The position numbers and the translations under genes are program-made. The notes under the pieces are model-generated. The model was not told where the DNA came from. It made no database searches and worked only from the letters and a program-made list of their open reading frames with translations. DNA of 43,263 nt from Candidatus Manganitrophaceae bacterium (GTDB lineage: Bacteria; Nitrospirota; Nitrospiria; SBBL01; JAADHI01): positions 1 to 43,263 of the forward strand of contig JAADHI010000100.1 in NCBI GenBank assembly GCA_013151935.1, in the 5' to 3' direction. Below, piece after piece: positions 1 to 6,917 of the stretch (its first letter is position 1; each line of letters starts with the position of its first letter).

Positions 1-2593
1 TCTCGTCAATGACCGAAATAATATCCACGATTTTCTTGCTACTCTTGTTCACCGCCAACATGGCTTCTGAGGTTTCCGCCGTGACACGGCCGCCTTTTTC
101 GGCGACTTCGCGGGCCGCAATGGCCAGTTGATTCGCCTGTGCGGCATTGTCGGCATTTTGTTTGACCGTTGACGTCATCTCTTCCATTGATGATGAGGTT
201 TCTTCTAAAGCACTCGCCTGTTCTGCCGTTCTCTGCGACAGATCTTCGTTGCCCTTGCTGATCTCATTTATGCCGTTAGTCACCAAGTCAGAACCTTCGG
301 AAACAGATATTAGGGTCTCGCTGAGTTGCGTGATTGCTTTATTGAGACTCTCTTTCATCTCATTAAAAGAACCTTGATATTCACCCTTCATCGGAGTGCG
401 TAAATCTCCTTCTGAAAGAAAGCTTAAAACCTCCTGCGCTTCTGTAATAGGTGCTTCTACCGCAGCCAACATACTGTTAATGCCCTCTGCCAAGGTCTTT
501 AAAAATCCGTCAAAAACAGAGGCGTCAATGCGCTCACTCAACACACCGGCCGAAGCAGATGTAATCAATCGTTCGACTTCATTCTGGGCTTGTTTCTGGG
601 AGGTGACGTCCTGCCATTCCACGACGTTACCCACATAGTTTCCGTCCTTATCCATAATGGCCGAAACATTCAGATCTAAGGTCGCAGATCCAACCGCAAT
701 CTCGGTGCGATAAGGCAGGTTATTTGGGTTATCTAAAAGACGACGCTGCATTGAGGGATCTTTGTGAAAACCGTCAATGCTCGAACCGACAATTCCCTTC
801 ACCGTAAAACCTGAAAAAACCTTTCTAATTTCAAATTCTAGTTTTGACAAGGTTGTTTCCGAGGCCTGATTCATGTAGACAATCTCATAATTACGATCGC
901 AGACCATGATGTTTGTATTAGCATTATCAAGTGAAGATTTGAGACGTGCCATCTCGACTTCGGCCTGACGTTTTGCCGTCACATCTTCCCATTCAAGGGT
1001 GTTTCCCAGATAGTCGCCCGAATCTGAAATAATCGCGGAAACATTCAAATCCAATATGGCTGGTCCAACCTGGATGTCTGCACGATAGGGCATATTTTTG
1101 GGATCACCCAAAATCACCCTTTGTTTTGAAGGATCCTGATGAAAACGATCAATGACCGAACCCACAATCGTATCTACGGTAAAATCGTGAAAAACTTTTT
1201 TGATTTCCGGTGCAAGACGCGTCAGGGTCTTTTCTGAGGCCTTGTTCATGTAAATAATTTCTAAATCACGATTGCAAATCAGGACGTTTCCATTTGAGTT
1301 ATCAAGCGAGGATTTGAGACGTGCCATCTTGACTCCGGCCTGCCGCTTTTCTGTTACATCTTCCCATTCAAGGGTATTCCCCACATAGTCGCCCGAATCT
1401 GAAATAATCGCGGAAACATTCAAATCCAAAATAGCAGGTCCTACTTGAATATCCGCACGATAGGGCATGTTATTCGGATTATCTAAAATCGCCCTTTGTT
1501 TTGAAGGATCCTGATGAAAACGATCAATGACCGAACCCACAATCGTATCCACGCTAAAATCGTGAAAAACTTTTTTGATTTCCGGTGCAAGACGCGTCAG
1601 AGTCTTCTCTGAGGCCTTGTTCATATAAATGATTTCTAAATCACGATTGCAAATCAGGACGTTTCCATTTGAGTTATCAAGCGAGGATTTCAAACGCGCC
1701 ATCTCGATGGCAGCACGTCGTTTTTCACTCACCTCCTCCCATTCAAGTGTGTTGCCTATATATTCCCCCGTCTCTGAAATATTGGCTGTGACTTTTAGCT
1801 CCAACTTCAAGGGGCCGATTTCAATATCGGCACTGTAGGGCAGGTTTGCGGGATCAGATAAAATTTTTCGCTGTTTGGCGGGTATTTGGTGAAAGTCATC
1901 AATATTGGTTCCCACAATATTGTCGACAGAAAAACCCGGAAAAGCCTCCGCGATTTCAGACTCCACTGCACTCAAAGTCTTGATCGAAGCCTTATTGACA
2001 TAAGTAATATTTAAGTCTCGATCACAAATAATGACATGGGCAGCAATATTATCGAGTGCCGCCTGTGCGATATTGGTCCCAGTGTTTTTCTTTTTCTCGC
2101 CCTTTTTCCCGCTTGGAGACATGTTTGTTTCCTCTTTTTTTGTTTGTATTTTTTTGATTTTCCCCTGAGCCTTAACATTTTTTTGTTTCTGGCTCGCGCC
2201 CTCTAACATGACTGTTTTAATCGTATCAAGCGCATCAACCCATGCTTTTTTGACTTTGTCTGTCCAAGCATCTGCGGCAAATTCAGCCAGCACAGCCAAC
2301 AAATTTTCATTCACGGCATCATAATGTCCAGCTTCTGCACCGTAGCTTAGATGACGTTTACCCATTGCGCGCAAGGCCTTTACCAAGACCTCCGGTCGTC
2401 TCAAATTTTCAACAACCAGGACCAAGGACGCCAAGAGCATCTTTTGTTGTTTTTTTGGGCTTGTCCCACTAAACAGGGCTTCGACTTGCGGATATTTTTC
2501 AAAAAGCCGTTCGTAAAATCGTGCAACAAGCGCGTCTCCCTGCGGTGCAACAAGTGCAAAACTGTCTTCTAAGACTTTGACATTAAGTGCCAT
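1..2593 (-). CDS. Methyl-accepting chemotaxis protein with N-terminal globin domain and four tandem PAS domains; C-terminus truncated by window start
   Basis: Open minus-strand frame from ATG at 2593 (SD AAAGGAG upstream) to the window edge. N-terminus MALNVKVLEDSFALVAPQGDALVARFYERLFEKYPQVEALFSG...MGKRHLSYGAEAGHYDAV... is globin-like. Four 125-codon PAS units (exact 375-bp period) follow, then MCP signalling sequence (SQRTAEQASALEETSSSMEEMTSTVKQNADNA). Not in the ORF track because it has no stop in the window. Confidence 0.9.
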   Translation of the reverse strand, partial: MALNVKVLEDSFALVAPQGDALVARFYERLFEKYPQVEALFSGTSPKKQQKMLLASLVLVVENLRRPEVLVKALRAMGKRHLSYGAEAGHYDAVNENLLAVLAEFAADAWTDKVKKAWVDALDTIKTVMLEGASQKQKNVKAQGKIKKIQTKKEETNMSPSGKKGEKKKNTGTNIAQAALDNIAAHVIICDRDLNITYVNKASIKTLSAVESEIAEAFPGFSVDNIVGTNIDDFHQIPAKQRKILSDPANLPYSADIEIGPLKLELKVTANISETGEYIGNTLEWEEVSEKRRAAIEMARLKSSLDNSNGNVLICNRDLEIIYMNKASEKTLTRLAPEIKKVFHDFSVDTIVGSVIDRFHQDPSKQRAILDNPNNMPYRADIQVGPAILDLNVSAIISDSGDYVGNTLEWEDVTEKRQAGVKMARLKSSLDNSNGNVLICNRDLEIIYMNKASEKTLTRLAPEIKKVFHDFTVDTIVGSVIDRFHQDPSKQRVILGDPKNMPYRADIQVGPAILDLNVSAIISDSGDYLGNTLEWEDVTAKRQAEVEMARLKSSLDNANTNIMVCDRNYEIVYMNQASETTLSKLEFEIRKVFSGFTVKGIVGSSIDGFHKDPSMQRRLLDNPNNLPYRTEIAVGSATLDLNVSAIMDKDGNYVGNVVEWQDVTSQKQAQNEVERLITSASAGVLSERIDASVFDGFLKTLAEGINSMLAAVEAPITEAQEVLSFLSEGDLRTPMKGEYQGSFNEMKESLNKAITQLSETLISVSEGSDLVTNGINEISKGNEDLSQRTAEQASALEETSSSMEEMTSTVKQNADNAAQANQLAIAAREVAEKGGRVTAETSEAMLAVNKSSKKIVDIISVIDE

Positions 2594-2670: not shown

Positions 2671-3186
2671 TCACTGCTCAGTCTCTGGAACATCAAATTC
2701 TTCAGTACCTGAAACAGAAAGCACACGGTCGATATCCAAAAAAGCCACCAGTTTTTCACCATAACTGCCGATGCCGTTGATAAAACCCACATCCACCATA
2801 CTGCCAAATTCTGGCGCAGGTTGGATGTCTTTTGCGGCAATATTCATGACATCTGATACCGCATCAACAATGATACCCATGATGCGGCCTTTGACTTCGA
2901 CGACGATAATCACGGTTTTTTTGTCGTATTCCTGTTGTTCCATGCCAAACTTCATACGCAAATCCACAATAGGAACAATGGTTCCTCGCAAATTGAGTAC
3001 CCCTTTGACATAGTTCGGCGTATTTGGAATACGGGTCACCCCGGTATATCCCTTAATTTCCTGAACCCTGAGAATCTCCACCCCATATTGTTCCTCTCCA
3101 AGTGCAAAGGTGAGATATTGATCCCCATCGGACGCGAAACCCATCTGGTCATCCTGTGACTTTACTGATTCTGTTGCGATAGACAC
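2671..3186 (-). CDS. cheW: Chemotaxis coupling protein CheW
   Basis: YLTFALGEEQYGVEILRVQEIKGYTGVTRIPNTPNYVKGVLNLRGTIVPIVDLRMKFG is CheW-typical. Start refined to GTG at 3186 (SD AAAGGAGG 4 nt upstream) rather than the ORF-track ATG at 3267. Confidence 0.93.
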   Translation of the reverse strand: MSIATESVKSQDDQMGFASDGDQYLTFALGEEQYGVEILRVQEIKGYTGVTRIPNTPNYVKGVLNLRGTIVPIVDLRMKFGMEQQEYDKKTVIIVVEVKGRIMGIIVDAVSDVMNIAAKDIQPAPEFGSMVDVGFINGIGSYGEKLVAFLDIDRVLSVSGTEEFDVPETEQ

Positions 3187-3279
3187 TGTGCCTCCTTTCA
3201 TCTTCTCCAAAAGCGAAGAATATTCCCTTTTTTGACCCCGTTTCTGCCGCCCTTTGTGGCAAAACACAAAGGCCTCAAA

Positions 3280-5172
3280 TTACCCCACAAACATCTGCTC
3301 TTCATGCCCCGCAAAGGAACGAATGGCACGCACATCTATAATAAAAGCGACGTGTCCATCCCCCAATATTGTCGCCCCGGCAATGCCATTCACCTTTTTA
3401 AAATTGGTTTCCATACTCTTGATCACAACCTGTTGCTGGCCGAGCAATTCATCGACTAAAACAGCCACACGTCCCCCATCTGACTCAATGACAGACAAAA
3501 CGCCCTTGGTGGGATCGGTGACATCAGATTCTGTACCAAAGAGTTCAGCCAGTCGCACAATAGGCAGATATTCTCCACGCATATTGACCAGCTCGCCTCG
3601 TTCCATAATGGTTTTGATCTCATTTTCTTTGGGTCGCATGGATTCCACGATAGAGGTAATCGGCAAAATGTAAACTTCCTTACCGACCTTCACCACCATG
3701 CCCTCAATAATCGCAAGCGTCAGCGGTAGACGAATGATAAAACGACTTCCGACCCCTTCTTCAGATTCGATCTCTACCATGCCCCCCATGGATTGCACAT
3801 TCTTTTTGACAACATCCATACCGACACCGCGACCTGAGATATCACTGACTTTTTTTGCGGTCGAAAAACCCGCTGCAAAAATGAGATTCCAAACCTCTGC
3901 ATCAGAAATATTCTCTGGAATAGACATGCCCTGCTCGGCAGCCTTGGCAAGAATACGTTCTCGATTTAAACCCGCACCGTTGTCTCTCACTTCAATAACG
4001 ACATTTCCCCCCTGATGAGAAGCCTCTAAAATGATGGTGCCCATGGGGTCTTTTCCTGCGGCCTTGCGATCTTCGGGGGATTCAATTCCGTGATCGAAAC
4101 TGTTTCGTAAGAGATGAGTCAGTGGATCAGAAAGTTTTTCAATAAACCCTTTGTCAATTTCGGTTTCCTCTCCAATCATCACCAATTCAAGTTCTTTCTT
4201 AAATGCCTTTTTCATGTCACGAACAAGTCTGGGAAAACGGCTAAACACCATACGAATCGGCACCATGCGAATGGCCATCACACTTTCCTGTAAATCTCGG
4301 GTATTGCGCTCCAACTGAACAAGACCATTTTCTAATTTTTCAAAAATTTCAGGATCAAGATGGGATGCCGTCTGCGCCAACATGGCCTGAGTGATGACGA
4401 TTTCTCCAACTTGATTAAAAAGCTGATCAACTTTTTCGACACCAATGCGAATAGAGGTTGCTTCTGCTTGTGCTTTCGCGGCTTTTTCTGGGCGTATTTT
4501 TTTAATCGGGGTTTTGGCCACCCCAGAAGTCGAAATCGTTTCTTCTGCCTTTTCAGCTGACGAACCCGACACACTTTCTTCGTCATCAAAAAAGCCAAAA
4601 CCAGGATCTTTCTCAGCTTCGACTTCCGAATGCGATTCAGGATCACTGTCCTCAATGGGAGGATCATCATCAAAAAAGCCGAAACCTAAGTCTTTCTCTT
4701 CCTCATCGACCACTTCAGACACTTTTTTGGTTTTTTCTGTAGGTTTTGTCTTTGTTTTTTTAGGACTTTCTTCTGTTTTCAAGACATCACCCGAAACCAC
4801 CTTAAGACGTTCGATAATGTCGATGGAAGAAGTCATATCGATTTCACCTTCCTCCTTATATGCCTCTAATATTTCCTTTAAGACATCTCCCCCTTCCAAG
4901 AAAATATCGACCATTTCACTTTTGAGCGCTAATTCTGATTTTCTAACTTTATCGAGTACAGTTTCAAAAGCATGTGCGACCTTGGTAAGTTTATCGAAAC
5001 CAAATGTCCCCGCACCGCCCTTGATGGAGTGTACGGCGCGAAAGATTGCATTTAACTCCTCAGAGTCGGGTGACAACACATCCAAGTTAAGGAGTAACCC
5101 TTCCATTGCAACAAGATGCTCAGCCGTCTCTTCATAAAAAACATCAAAAAATTGGCTTTTATCAAAATCCAT
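3280..5172 (-). CDS. cheA: Chemotaxis histidine kinase CheA (Hpt, dimerization, HATPase, CheW-like domains; no evident P2)
   Basis: N-terminal Hpt (FRAVHSIKGGAGTFGFDKL), LVRNSFDHGIE-type N box (LLRNSFDHGIESPEDRKAAGK), GRGVGMDVVKKN, C-terminal CheW-like domain. Confidence 0.95.
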   Translation of the reverse strand: MDFDKSQFFDVFYEETAEHLVAMEGLLLNLDVLSPDSEELNAIFRAVHSIKGGAGTFGFDKLTKVAHAFETVLDKVRKSELALKSEMVDIFLEGGDVLKEILEAYKEEGEIDMTSSIDIIERLKVVSGDVLKTEESPKKTKTKPTEKTKKVSEVVDEEEKDLGFGFFDDDPPIEDSDPESHSEVEAEKDPGFGFFDDEESVSGSSAEKAEETISTSGVAKTPIKKIRPEKAAKAQAEATSIRIGVEKVDQLFNQVGEIVITQAMLAQTASHLDPEIFEKLENGLVQLERNTRDLQESVMAIRMVPIRMVFSRFPRLVRDMKKAFKKELELVMIGEETEIDKGFIEKLSDPLTHLLRNSFDHGIESPEDRKAAGKDPMGTIILEASHQGGNVVIEVRDNGAGLNRERILAKAAEQGMSIPENISDAEVWNLIFAAGFSTAKKVSDISGRGVGMDVVKKNVQSMGGMVEIESEEGVGSRFIIRLPLTLAIIEGMVVKVGKEVYILPITSIVESMRPKENEIKTIMERGELVNMRGEYLPIVRLAELFGTESDVTDPTKGVLSVIESDGGRVAVLVDELLGQQQVVIKSMETNFKKVNGIAGATILGDGHVAFIIDVRAIRSFAGHEEQMFVG

Positions 5173-5202: not shown

Positions 5203-5568
5203 TCAGCCAATCACTTTTTTGACAACCAATAACAATTTAGCCGGATCAAAAGGCTTAACCAGCCAACCTGTCGCACCCACCGCTTTTCCTTGGCTTTTCA
5301 TGGTGTCACTTGATTCCGTCGTCAACATCAAAATAGGGGTTTTTTTATATTGCGGCGAACCACGCAAGGCCCGAATCAAAGATAAACCATCCATATTTGG
5401 CATGTTCTGATCCGTCAAAACGAGATTGAAGGGTTTTGTTTTTGACTTGATCAGGGCATCCTGACCATCCACCGCCTCAACTACGTCGTAGCCCGCACCT
5501 TTCAAGGTAAAAACAACCATCTGCCGCATTGATTTAGAATCATCAACGGCCAAAACAGATTTTCCCAT
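5203..5568 (-). CDS. cheY: Single-domain response regulator CheY
   Basis: MGKSVLAVDDSKSMRQMVVFTLKGAGYDVVEAVDGQDAL...LVLTDQNMPNMDG...LTTES...KPF; start refined to ATG at 5568 with SD AGGAGG. Confidence 0.93.
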   Translation of the reverse strand: MGKSVLAVDDSKSMRQMVVFTLKGAGYDVVEAVDGQDALIKSKTKPFNLVLTDQNMPNMDGLSLIRALRGSPQYKKTPILMLTTESSDTMKSQGKAVGATGWLVKPFDPAKLLLVVKKVIG

Positions 5569-5645
5569 GGAACCTTCCTCCTTCTTGTAAAATGCGGGCA
5601 AACATTTTGCCCCACAGCCACGTGTCTATGGTCAGCACAATTTCA

Positions 5646-6917
5646 CTAAAATAACTCGATATCCCCAGCACCCACATTCTCTTGAGCCACTTTTGTGTTG
5701 CTGGCTTGCTCCGTAGTCGCACTCACGGTTTGATAAGAATCGTCTTCGATTTGATTCTCCGTATAAACATCTGATTTTTCGATGATGCACACTCCTCCGC
5801 CACTCACAATCGCTTCTATTTTTTCCATACGCAGGAGTACACCATCAAGTAGTTGTCGGACCAAATCTTCAAATTGAAGCGCCGTAATCGCACTGCCCAC
5901 GTTGTTTGTAATCTGGGCACTTATTGTTGAAACCGAATCAACCCCTTCAATCATTTTTTGATGGAGCGCGCTTAAACCCTTCATCATTTGTTCGGTTTCC
6001 CGTTTTGCCTGAAGCACAAAGTTCATGTCTTTTGAAGCCAAGTCATTTGTGGATTTTTCAGCCCGTTCGATGGCCTCTCTAATCTCTTGCACATGCTTCA
6101 CAATACCCATGCCAAAAGCCTTGGAATGATTTGAAAGCTGTCGGACTTCTGCTGCCACAACAGCAAAGCCCCGCCCTGCCGTGCCTGCCCGGGCTGCCTC
6201 AATCGTGGCATTGATTGCCAGCACTTTAGTTTGCTCAGCGATGGAATCAACACCACCCACATCCCGGAGTATGTTCTTAACCAGATCTGTTACATCTTCC
6301 AGTTTTTCAACAAGCCGCATACTGTGTTTGCTGGTATGCACAATGTTTCCAACAAGTTCTGCCATCAACTTTTCCGTCTCCATCGCAAACCGTTCAAAAT
6401 CAATGGACTCATCTGCGCCCTCTTCCTCCACGCTGGAATCAGATGTAATGTCTCCAATAAGATCTCGCTGTGCCCGTGTTCCAGCCTCCAGTGCCGTAAA
6501 ATTCTGATTGAGTTTTTCAATGGCATCTTCTAATAGACCATTCACTTGTTGTACTTCTCTCCTAATGGCGACAAACTGAAGATCCATATCTTTTTTTCGT
6601 TCTTCTGAAATTGCTCCGGGCTGAAGGGTAGAATCTTCTACTTTGTTTTCATCAGCCGCAGCCATATCTCGGGTGGTTTCCATTTCAAAAGAAGTATCTG
6701 AGCGCTCTTCCAAAACAAGTGGATCCTCAGATGATGCAACTTCCTGAGACACCACAGCAGTGTAAATTTTGAGATAAGACTTCGACAAAAGTCCCCAATT
6801 GATAGAAACTACGGCCAAAACCCAAAAGGACTCCGAACTTACGTCAAACCAATACAGGGCAAGAAATCCCAAACCACTTGAAGTCCATGCCTTCAGAAAA
6901 TAAGCACTCATAAACAA
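5646..6917 (-). CDS. MCP-like membrane protein with short N-terminal TM region and atypical C-terminus
   Basis: Hydrophobic N-terminus; hairpin-tip-like segment [36 protein letters not shown]-terminal [12 protein letters not shown] and terminal GDIELF. Confidence 0.85.

Follow-up and report, generated by a model that had tools for sequence, protein, structure and literature searches.

An F-type globin joined to predicted Aer2-type PAS-heme domains in a chemoreceptor family of Nitrospiria

Introduction

The class Nitrospiria includes the nitrite-oxidising Nitrospira, for which positioning with respect to oxygen is ecologically central. Experimental tests of Nitrospira aerotaxis receptors were not found in the literature searched. 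In the stretch of DNA analyzed here (the window, 43,263 nucleotides from Candidatus Manganitrophaceae), a chemoreceptor encoded next to cheW, cheA and cheY begins with a globin-like domain. The locus raises the question of which kind of globin this is, and whether it is the input of the receptor or an accessory to a receptor that senses oxygen through its other domains.

Several of the components are already known, namely the HemAT globin-coupled MCPs, the Aer2 receptors, HGbRL as an F-type putative sensor, and the combination of PAS, globin and MCP domains in one protein. The F-type assignment of the globin, the PAS-heme identity, the CheW fusion and the internal start described below were not found in the literature searched, which was open-access only, and earlier notice elsewhere is possible.

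Receptor gene and chemotaxis operon

The receptor open reading frame is on the minus strand, starts with an ATG at 2593 and runs past the contig end. Base 1 of the window is base 1 of the contig (C154), and the receptor C-terminus is missing because the contig ends within the gene, leaving 864 readable amino acids. By comparison with relatives, in which it is intact, a full MCP domain is expected. Pfam domains bore out the initial annotation of one protein that combines a globin, four PAS repeats and an MCP module, with the globin at the N-terminus and the signalling domain at the C-terminus (Table 1). The four PAS repeats span aa 174-673, and HAMP is placed between the last PAS and the MCP domain, as in Aer2-type PAS-heme receptors. 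No membrane segment was found in the window protein.

Table 1. Features of the receptor gene and the adjoining chemotaxis genes in the window.
Feature	Coordinates	Strand	Evidence
F-type globin domain, aa 1-132 (Y27 B10, F41 CD1, Q49 E7, H81 F8, Y91 G5)	2198..2593	-	Pfam PF00042, PDB matches, AF2 model, Foldseek, conserved residues
Lys-rich low-complexity linker, aa 133-173	2075..2197	-	Translation; length and composition vary among relatives
Shine-Dalgarno-like AGAGG, 8 nt 5' of internal ATG	2131..2135	-	Equivalent site in 30/30 receptor fusions
Met158 codon (ATG, in frame), candidate start of a globin-less receptor	2120..2122	-	Sequence
PAS1, predicted Aer2-type PAS-heme (His235, Trp285)	1700..2074	-	Heme-ligand residues aligned
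PAS2, predicted Aer2-type PAS-heme (His360, Trp410)	1325..1699	-	phmmer, AF2, Foldseek
PAS3, predicted Aer2-type PAS-heme (His485, Trp535)	950..1324	-	Heme-ligand residues; 91% DNA identity to PAS2
PAS4, predicted Aer2-type PAS-heme (His610, Trp660), adjoins HAMP	575..949	-	Heme-ligand residues
HAMP domain (PF18947 HAMP_2), aa 695-757	323..511	-	Pfam E=2.4e-16
N-terminal start of MCP signalling domain, aa 822-864, cut by contig end	2..130	-	Pfam profile 2-44 of 172
cheW	2671..3267	-	PF01584 5.8e-40; directly upstream of globin receptor in nearly all complete relative neighborhoods read
cheA	3280..5172	-	Hpt, H-kinase_dim, HATPase_c, CheW domains
cheY	5203..5601	-	Sequence; synteny
Short MCP-domain protein, conserved beside cheY	5646..6917	-	PF00015 3.4e-23; synteny

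The cheW, cheA and cheY neighbors lie just upstream of the receptor on the same strand, as had been claimed. The position of the receptor directly after cheW recurs in four families, and the usual order upstream is the short MCP gene, cheY, cheA and then cheW. In the window and in two relatives (L027 and L112) the locus adjoins fliA-flhG-flhF, and flhA too if the sequence reaches that far. In the genome to which the window belongs, MCP domains occur at only four places and there are three CheR genes. The short protein encoded at 5646-6917 begins with hydrophobic segments and has a degenerate MCP domain; its counterpart in L112 is just a 155-aa C-terminal-like version.

The N-terminal globin

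The first ~132 residues had been annotated as a VHb/flavohemoglobin-type globin distinct from the protoglobin type of GCS and HemAT, and the profile comparison of PF00042 with PF11563 upheld both statements. The Globin profile PF00042 matched with E=8.7e-15 (55.7 bits, cut-off 22), whereas Protoglobin PF11563 reached 3.9e-4 (20.9 bits, under its cut-off of 25) and the truncated Bac_globin profile reached 0.028 (15.0 bits, cut-off 21). Assignment to the protoglobins or to the truncated globins is ruled out by these scores. A few relatives narrowly pass the protoglobin profile (25.6-29.1 bits), with PF00042 scores far above it. The PDB sequence matches were HGbRL (3wfw, 8e-16), HGbI (3ubc, 8.5e-14), VHb (1vhb, 9e-14) and flavohemoglobin (1e-13).

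Structure prediction gave a globin fold with a pocket that carries H81. The AlphaFold2 model (pLDDT 93.3, pTM 0.86) contains helices A/B, C, E, F, G and H and lacks a D helix; its top Foldseek match was HGbI (3s1i, rmsd 1.4, TM 0.85), with flavohemoglobin and VHb as runners-up and neuroglobins close after them. Tyr27 B10, Phe41 CD1, Gln49 E7, His81 F8 and Tyr91 G5 are invariant in an alignment of 14 genes, in agreement with the B10 and F8 residues proposed at the outset. For E7 the proposal had been Q49 or Q50. It is Q49 that stands, because this residue is invariant and falls in the same alignment column as the E7 Gln in HGbI, and Q50 was dropped since position 50 varies among the 14 genes. 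The characters of the F family are thus present, namely a 3/3 fold without a D helix, Tyr B10, Gln E7 and His F8, with PF00042 as the best profile rather than protoglobin or truncated globin. These results confirm that aa 1-132 form an F-type (flavohemoglobin/VHb-like) globin.

HGbRL of Methylacidiphilum, in which an F-type globin is fused to a Roadblock/LC7 domain as a putative sensor (PMC4476040), is the closest globin by sequence, HGbI is the closest by fold, and HGbRL provides a precedent for an F-type putative sensor. HGbRL differs from the window receptor in output, and the monomer model of the window globin is not site-swapped in the manner of HGbRL, as it has separate E and F helices and superposes with an rmsd of ~20 A. 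Lys E10 is the heme-binding residue in closed HGbRL and is shared by most relatives of the window globin; at this position (aa 52, 2438-2440) the window has Met, and the other 13 aligned globins have Lys.

Non-heme globin sensor domains exist (PMC4476040), and a globin without heme could act as a protein-protein module like Bacillus RsbR. The F8 His, B10 Tyr, E7 Gln and CD1 Phe are invariant in the 14 genes, and we regard this explanation as very improbable. A second alternative is an enzyme resembling NO dioxygenase that protects the receptor rather than sensing for it. The F-family globins include NO dioxygenases, and the pair of B10 Tyr and E7 Gln is the one found in flavohemoglobins; however, no FAD/NAD reductase domain follows the globin, where PAS, HAMP and MCP domains are found instead, so that the protein is no flavohemoglobin. 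The His-Tyr-Glu relay of flavohemoglobins is also incomplete, in that H81 and Y91 are kept but the position of the proximal Glu is occupied by A133 (Ala or Val in 14/14 genes). An enzymatic role of this kind is considered unlikely.

The PAS domains

With a single PAS repeat as query, the PDB gave no matches other than the Aer2 proteins of P. aeruginosa and V. cholerae (3vol, 4hi4 and 6ceq, 5e-21 to 6e-16), with PAS2 matching 3vol in phmmer at E=5e-21. The AF2 model of PAS2 (pLDDT 86) found the same three structures in Foldseek (4hi4 1.2e-12, 3vol 8e-12, 6ceq 4e-11), and the next structure followed at 6e-6. The 29 Aer2-type repeats come from 13 genes out of the set of 14, and every one keeps the heme-ligand His (E-eta) and Trp (I-beta); the remaining gene, L029, has ordinary PAS domains only and is outside this count. 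The alignment columns were taken from the 3vol comparison, and the His and Trp presumably correspond to H234 and W283 in the numbering of Aer2. The NCBIfam model for the aerotaxis transducer Aer2 (NF041847) scored 729 bits over aa 349-864, to be read against a cut-off of 1200 that applies to full-length proteins, as the window protein is cut by the contig end. Judged by these residues and matches, all four PAS domains are predicted to be Aer2-type heme PAS domains. A reading as FAD-type PAS domains is disfavored, as the Aer2 heme ligands are present.

The receptor could hold up to five hemes, because the four PAS domains carry the heme-ligand His and Trp in addition to the globin. PAS2 and PAS3 share 91% DNA identity (950-1699), and a recent tandem duplication follows from this, though it could also be an assembly artefact.

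O2 sensing is reported for Aer2 proteins that carry one, two or three PAS-hemes (PMC13401364). As is predicted for the window receptor, the Aer2 proteins of Pseudomonas aeruginosa, Vibrio cholerae (dual-PAS), V. vulnificus (tri-PAS) and Leptospira have tandem PAS-heme domains with an E-eta His and an I-beta Trp, followed by HAMP and then the MCP domain, and most Aer2 receptors are soluble (PMC13401364), as the window receptor is predicted to be. The window receptor differs in its additional N-terminal F-type globin and its four PAS repeats, in that no poly-HAMP array was recognized ahead of the PAS domains, and in the place of its gene, which lies within the core Nitrospirota flagellar/che cluster. 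Four predicted PAS-hemes and a globin would extend the known series of one to three PAS-hemes. The Aer2-type PAS domains are probably the main O2 sensors of the receptor. With two unrelated heme folds in one receptor, cooperation between globin and PAS-heme over different O2 ranges becomes testable.

The globin-receptor fusion family

The fusion family comprises at least 30 receptor genes in the class Nitrospiria. The close relatives of the window receptor are Nitrospirota MAGs, and globins of the window type occur in frames of 773-1113 aa in several families of Nitrospiria. The chemotaxis-fused globins group in a single clade (support 98/97), separate from the stand-alone Nitrospirota globins. 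Within this clade the partners are Aer2-PAS receptors, 4HB-MCPs, a Tll0287-like receptor and CheW. The fused globin is carried by transmembrane 4HB receptors in L029-L031 and L114, while L111 and L112 are natural globin-less receptors. A CheW fusion was found once (L097, the same gene as L113:7248-8414 of G466 C265, minus strand); there a globin of the clade is joined to CheW in a protein of 330 aa counted from the globin start.

At L115:1-2860 (minus strand), a globin is followed by a transmembrane receptor with a Tll0287-like domain, a CIGCH c-heme motif and PAS domains. Judged by these motifs, this receptor potentially combines b-heme and c-heme. In G215, G275, G336 and G382, which belong to another family, F-type globins matching at around 1e-25 occur in frames of 314-323 aa, and these frames therefore hold ~180 residues beyond the globin.

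Relatives beyond Nitrospirota were searched for in one genome-contig scan with close-match patterns and in plasmid records. The scan returned two congeners and nothing else. The plasmid search gave globins or flavohemoglobins alone among the 40 matches listed, none of which was named as an MCP; the two examined were stand-alone globins. The architecture had been called unusual; it is unusual, but it is not unique, as it recurs across Nitrospiria. In genome G039, which we take to be N. defluvii, PF01152 matches are restricted to frames of 163-196 aa, and the globin receptor is F-type. Sharma et al. 2018 listed PAS+Bac_globin+MCPsignal proteins for seven genomes, e.g. Corallococcus coralloides (Cc_4972) and Nitrospira defluvii (PMC6194562). 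These combine the same PAS, globin and MCP domain classes in one protein as the window receptor, but the globin was named Bac_globin (T-type) there and is F-type here. The N. defluvii entry on that list may be an orthologue of the window receptor.

HemAT and other protoglobin globin-coupled MCPs also have a heme globin at the MCP N-terminus. The window globin is F-type (PF00042) rather than protoglobin, and a flexible linker and PAS domains intervene before the MCP domain. Chemoreceptor globins are thus not confined to protoglobins. The receptor could nevertheless work as HemAT does, with the globin sensing O2 in line as the main input and the PAS domains serving as relay or FAD/redox modules; the combination of N-terminal globin and MCP output is that of HemAT (PMC13401364), and the heme pocket is intact. 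Such an in-line relay is unlikely because the linker is long, of low complexity and variable among relatives (9-36 aa up to the internal Met), and because two transmembrane segments lie between the globin and HAMP in the sister genes L029, L030, L031, L114 and L115. The Aer2 heme ligands in the PAS repeats also argue against it, as does G005, a member of the window's family in which the receptor in the corresponding place of the operon has no globin (L112). For the reasons of linker and membrane segments, it is doubtful that the globin feeds the four PAS domains, as initially described. The globin is most likely a tethered accessory module and not an in-line input, a role suggested by the flexible linker, the two membrane segments in sister receptors, the attachment to CheW and the lack of a reductase.

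The linker and its internal start

An in-frame start preceded by a Shine-Dalgarno (SD) sequence is found in the linker of all 30 receptor fusions (29 ATG, 1 TTG). The anti-SD energy at this start is -5.8 kcal/mol or lower in 30/30 receptor genes, compared with 24.5% of same-size windows elsewhere. When the CheW fusion is added to give 31 fusion genes, the mean is -8.9 kcal/mol, similar to that of true starts (same-size control windows, -4.0), and 27/31 (87%) are at about -8 kcal/mol or stronger (5.9% of control windows). Additionally, AAGGAG is unchanged in 14 related genes while the residues that it encodes vary (Q/E, E/A/D), and of 100 conserved codons 11 are invariant, including 3 of the 4 at the SD site (Fisher p=0.004).

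Through the linker start, a globin-less receptor is probably produced as well. This would resemble CheA(L)/CheA(S) of E. coli, where a second in-frame start gives an N-terminally shortened chemotaxis protein (PMC11005335), with the difference that the E. coli case is a kinase with experiments behind it and the present one is a receptor known from its sequence. It is quite possible, at somewhat short of an even chance, that the SD and start are a mere relic of fusion, with a single full-length protein in which the globin is obligatory. The linker Met of L115 aligns with the natural start of its unfused homologue L111, so that the internal start may simply mark where a free-standing receptor once began, and some fusions may be recent, as globins are joined to several receptor types. 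The synonymous tests are modest; gene by gene the shuffle test of the SD is weak (window p=0.44, most 0.05-0.3) in a purine-rich linker, and this keeps the relic explanation alive. Against it, the fused globins are one clade across four families, and the start and SD are kept in 30/30 receptor genes despite diverged linker residues, with conservation at the codon level; it is this spread that favors a functional internal start. The CheW fusion L097 has a linker Met but no SD (-1.7 kcal/mol), which also speaks against a relic.

Proposed function of the receptor

Taken with its operon, the protein is probably the cytoplasmic aerotaxis (gas-taxis) receptor of a motile member of the Nitrospirota, of the same kind as Vibrio/Pseudomonas Aer2 but with an F-type hemoglobin in front, in which the PAS-hemes would be the in-line O2 sensors and the globin a tethered accessory. 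The sequences establish the identity of the domains, the heme-ligand residues, the family, its synteny and the conserved start signal in the linker; heme loading, the choice of ligand, the direction of the response, the accessory role and the use of the internal start are inferred. Each Aer2-type PAS domain would hold a b-type heme through the E-eta His and bind O2 with the help of the I-beta Trp. PAS4, which lies beside HAMP, would relay its change in conformation to the MCP tip, thereby controlling CheA through CheW, while PAS1-3 may adjust affinity or gain, as the tri-PAS Aer2 from Vibrio vulnificus suggests by analogy. The globin heme is expected to bind O2, and possibly NO or CO, in the distal pocket formed by Tyr B10 and Gln E7. 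Tethered at the chemosensory array, the globin could serve as an extra sensor, an O2 buffer or an NO trap, and the conserved SD and start behind it would allow the globin-less receptor to be made alongside the full-length form.

For the family as a whole, we tentatively suggest that the F-type globin entered Nitrospirota arrays in a single recruitment, as an accessory cassette, that it then moved among receptors (Aer2-PAS, 4HB and c-heme Tll0287) and onto CheW, and that it is included or omitted by way of the internal start. The arrays would then be mixed, and the ratio of the two forms would set the sensitivity to O2 (or NO); this may be so, although we hold it with limited confidence. Receptor composition may be tunable through the internal start, as the fusion family suggests.

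Elsewhere in the genome to which the window belongs (L123:5219-6478, contig C75, minus strand), a protoglobin is followed by an apparent histidine kinase, and a classical globin sensor is therefore present in the same genome too.
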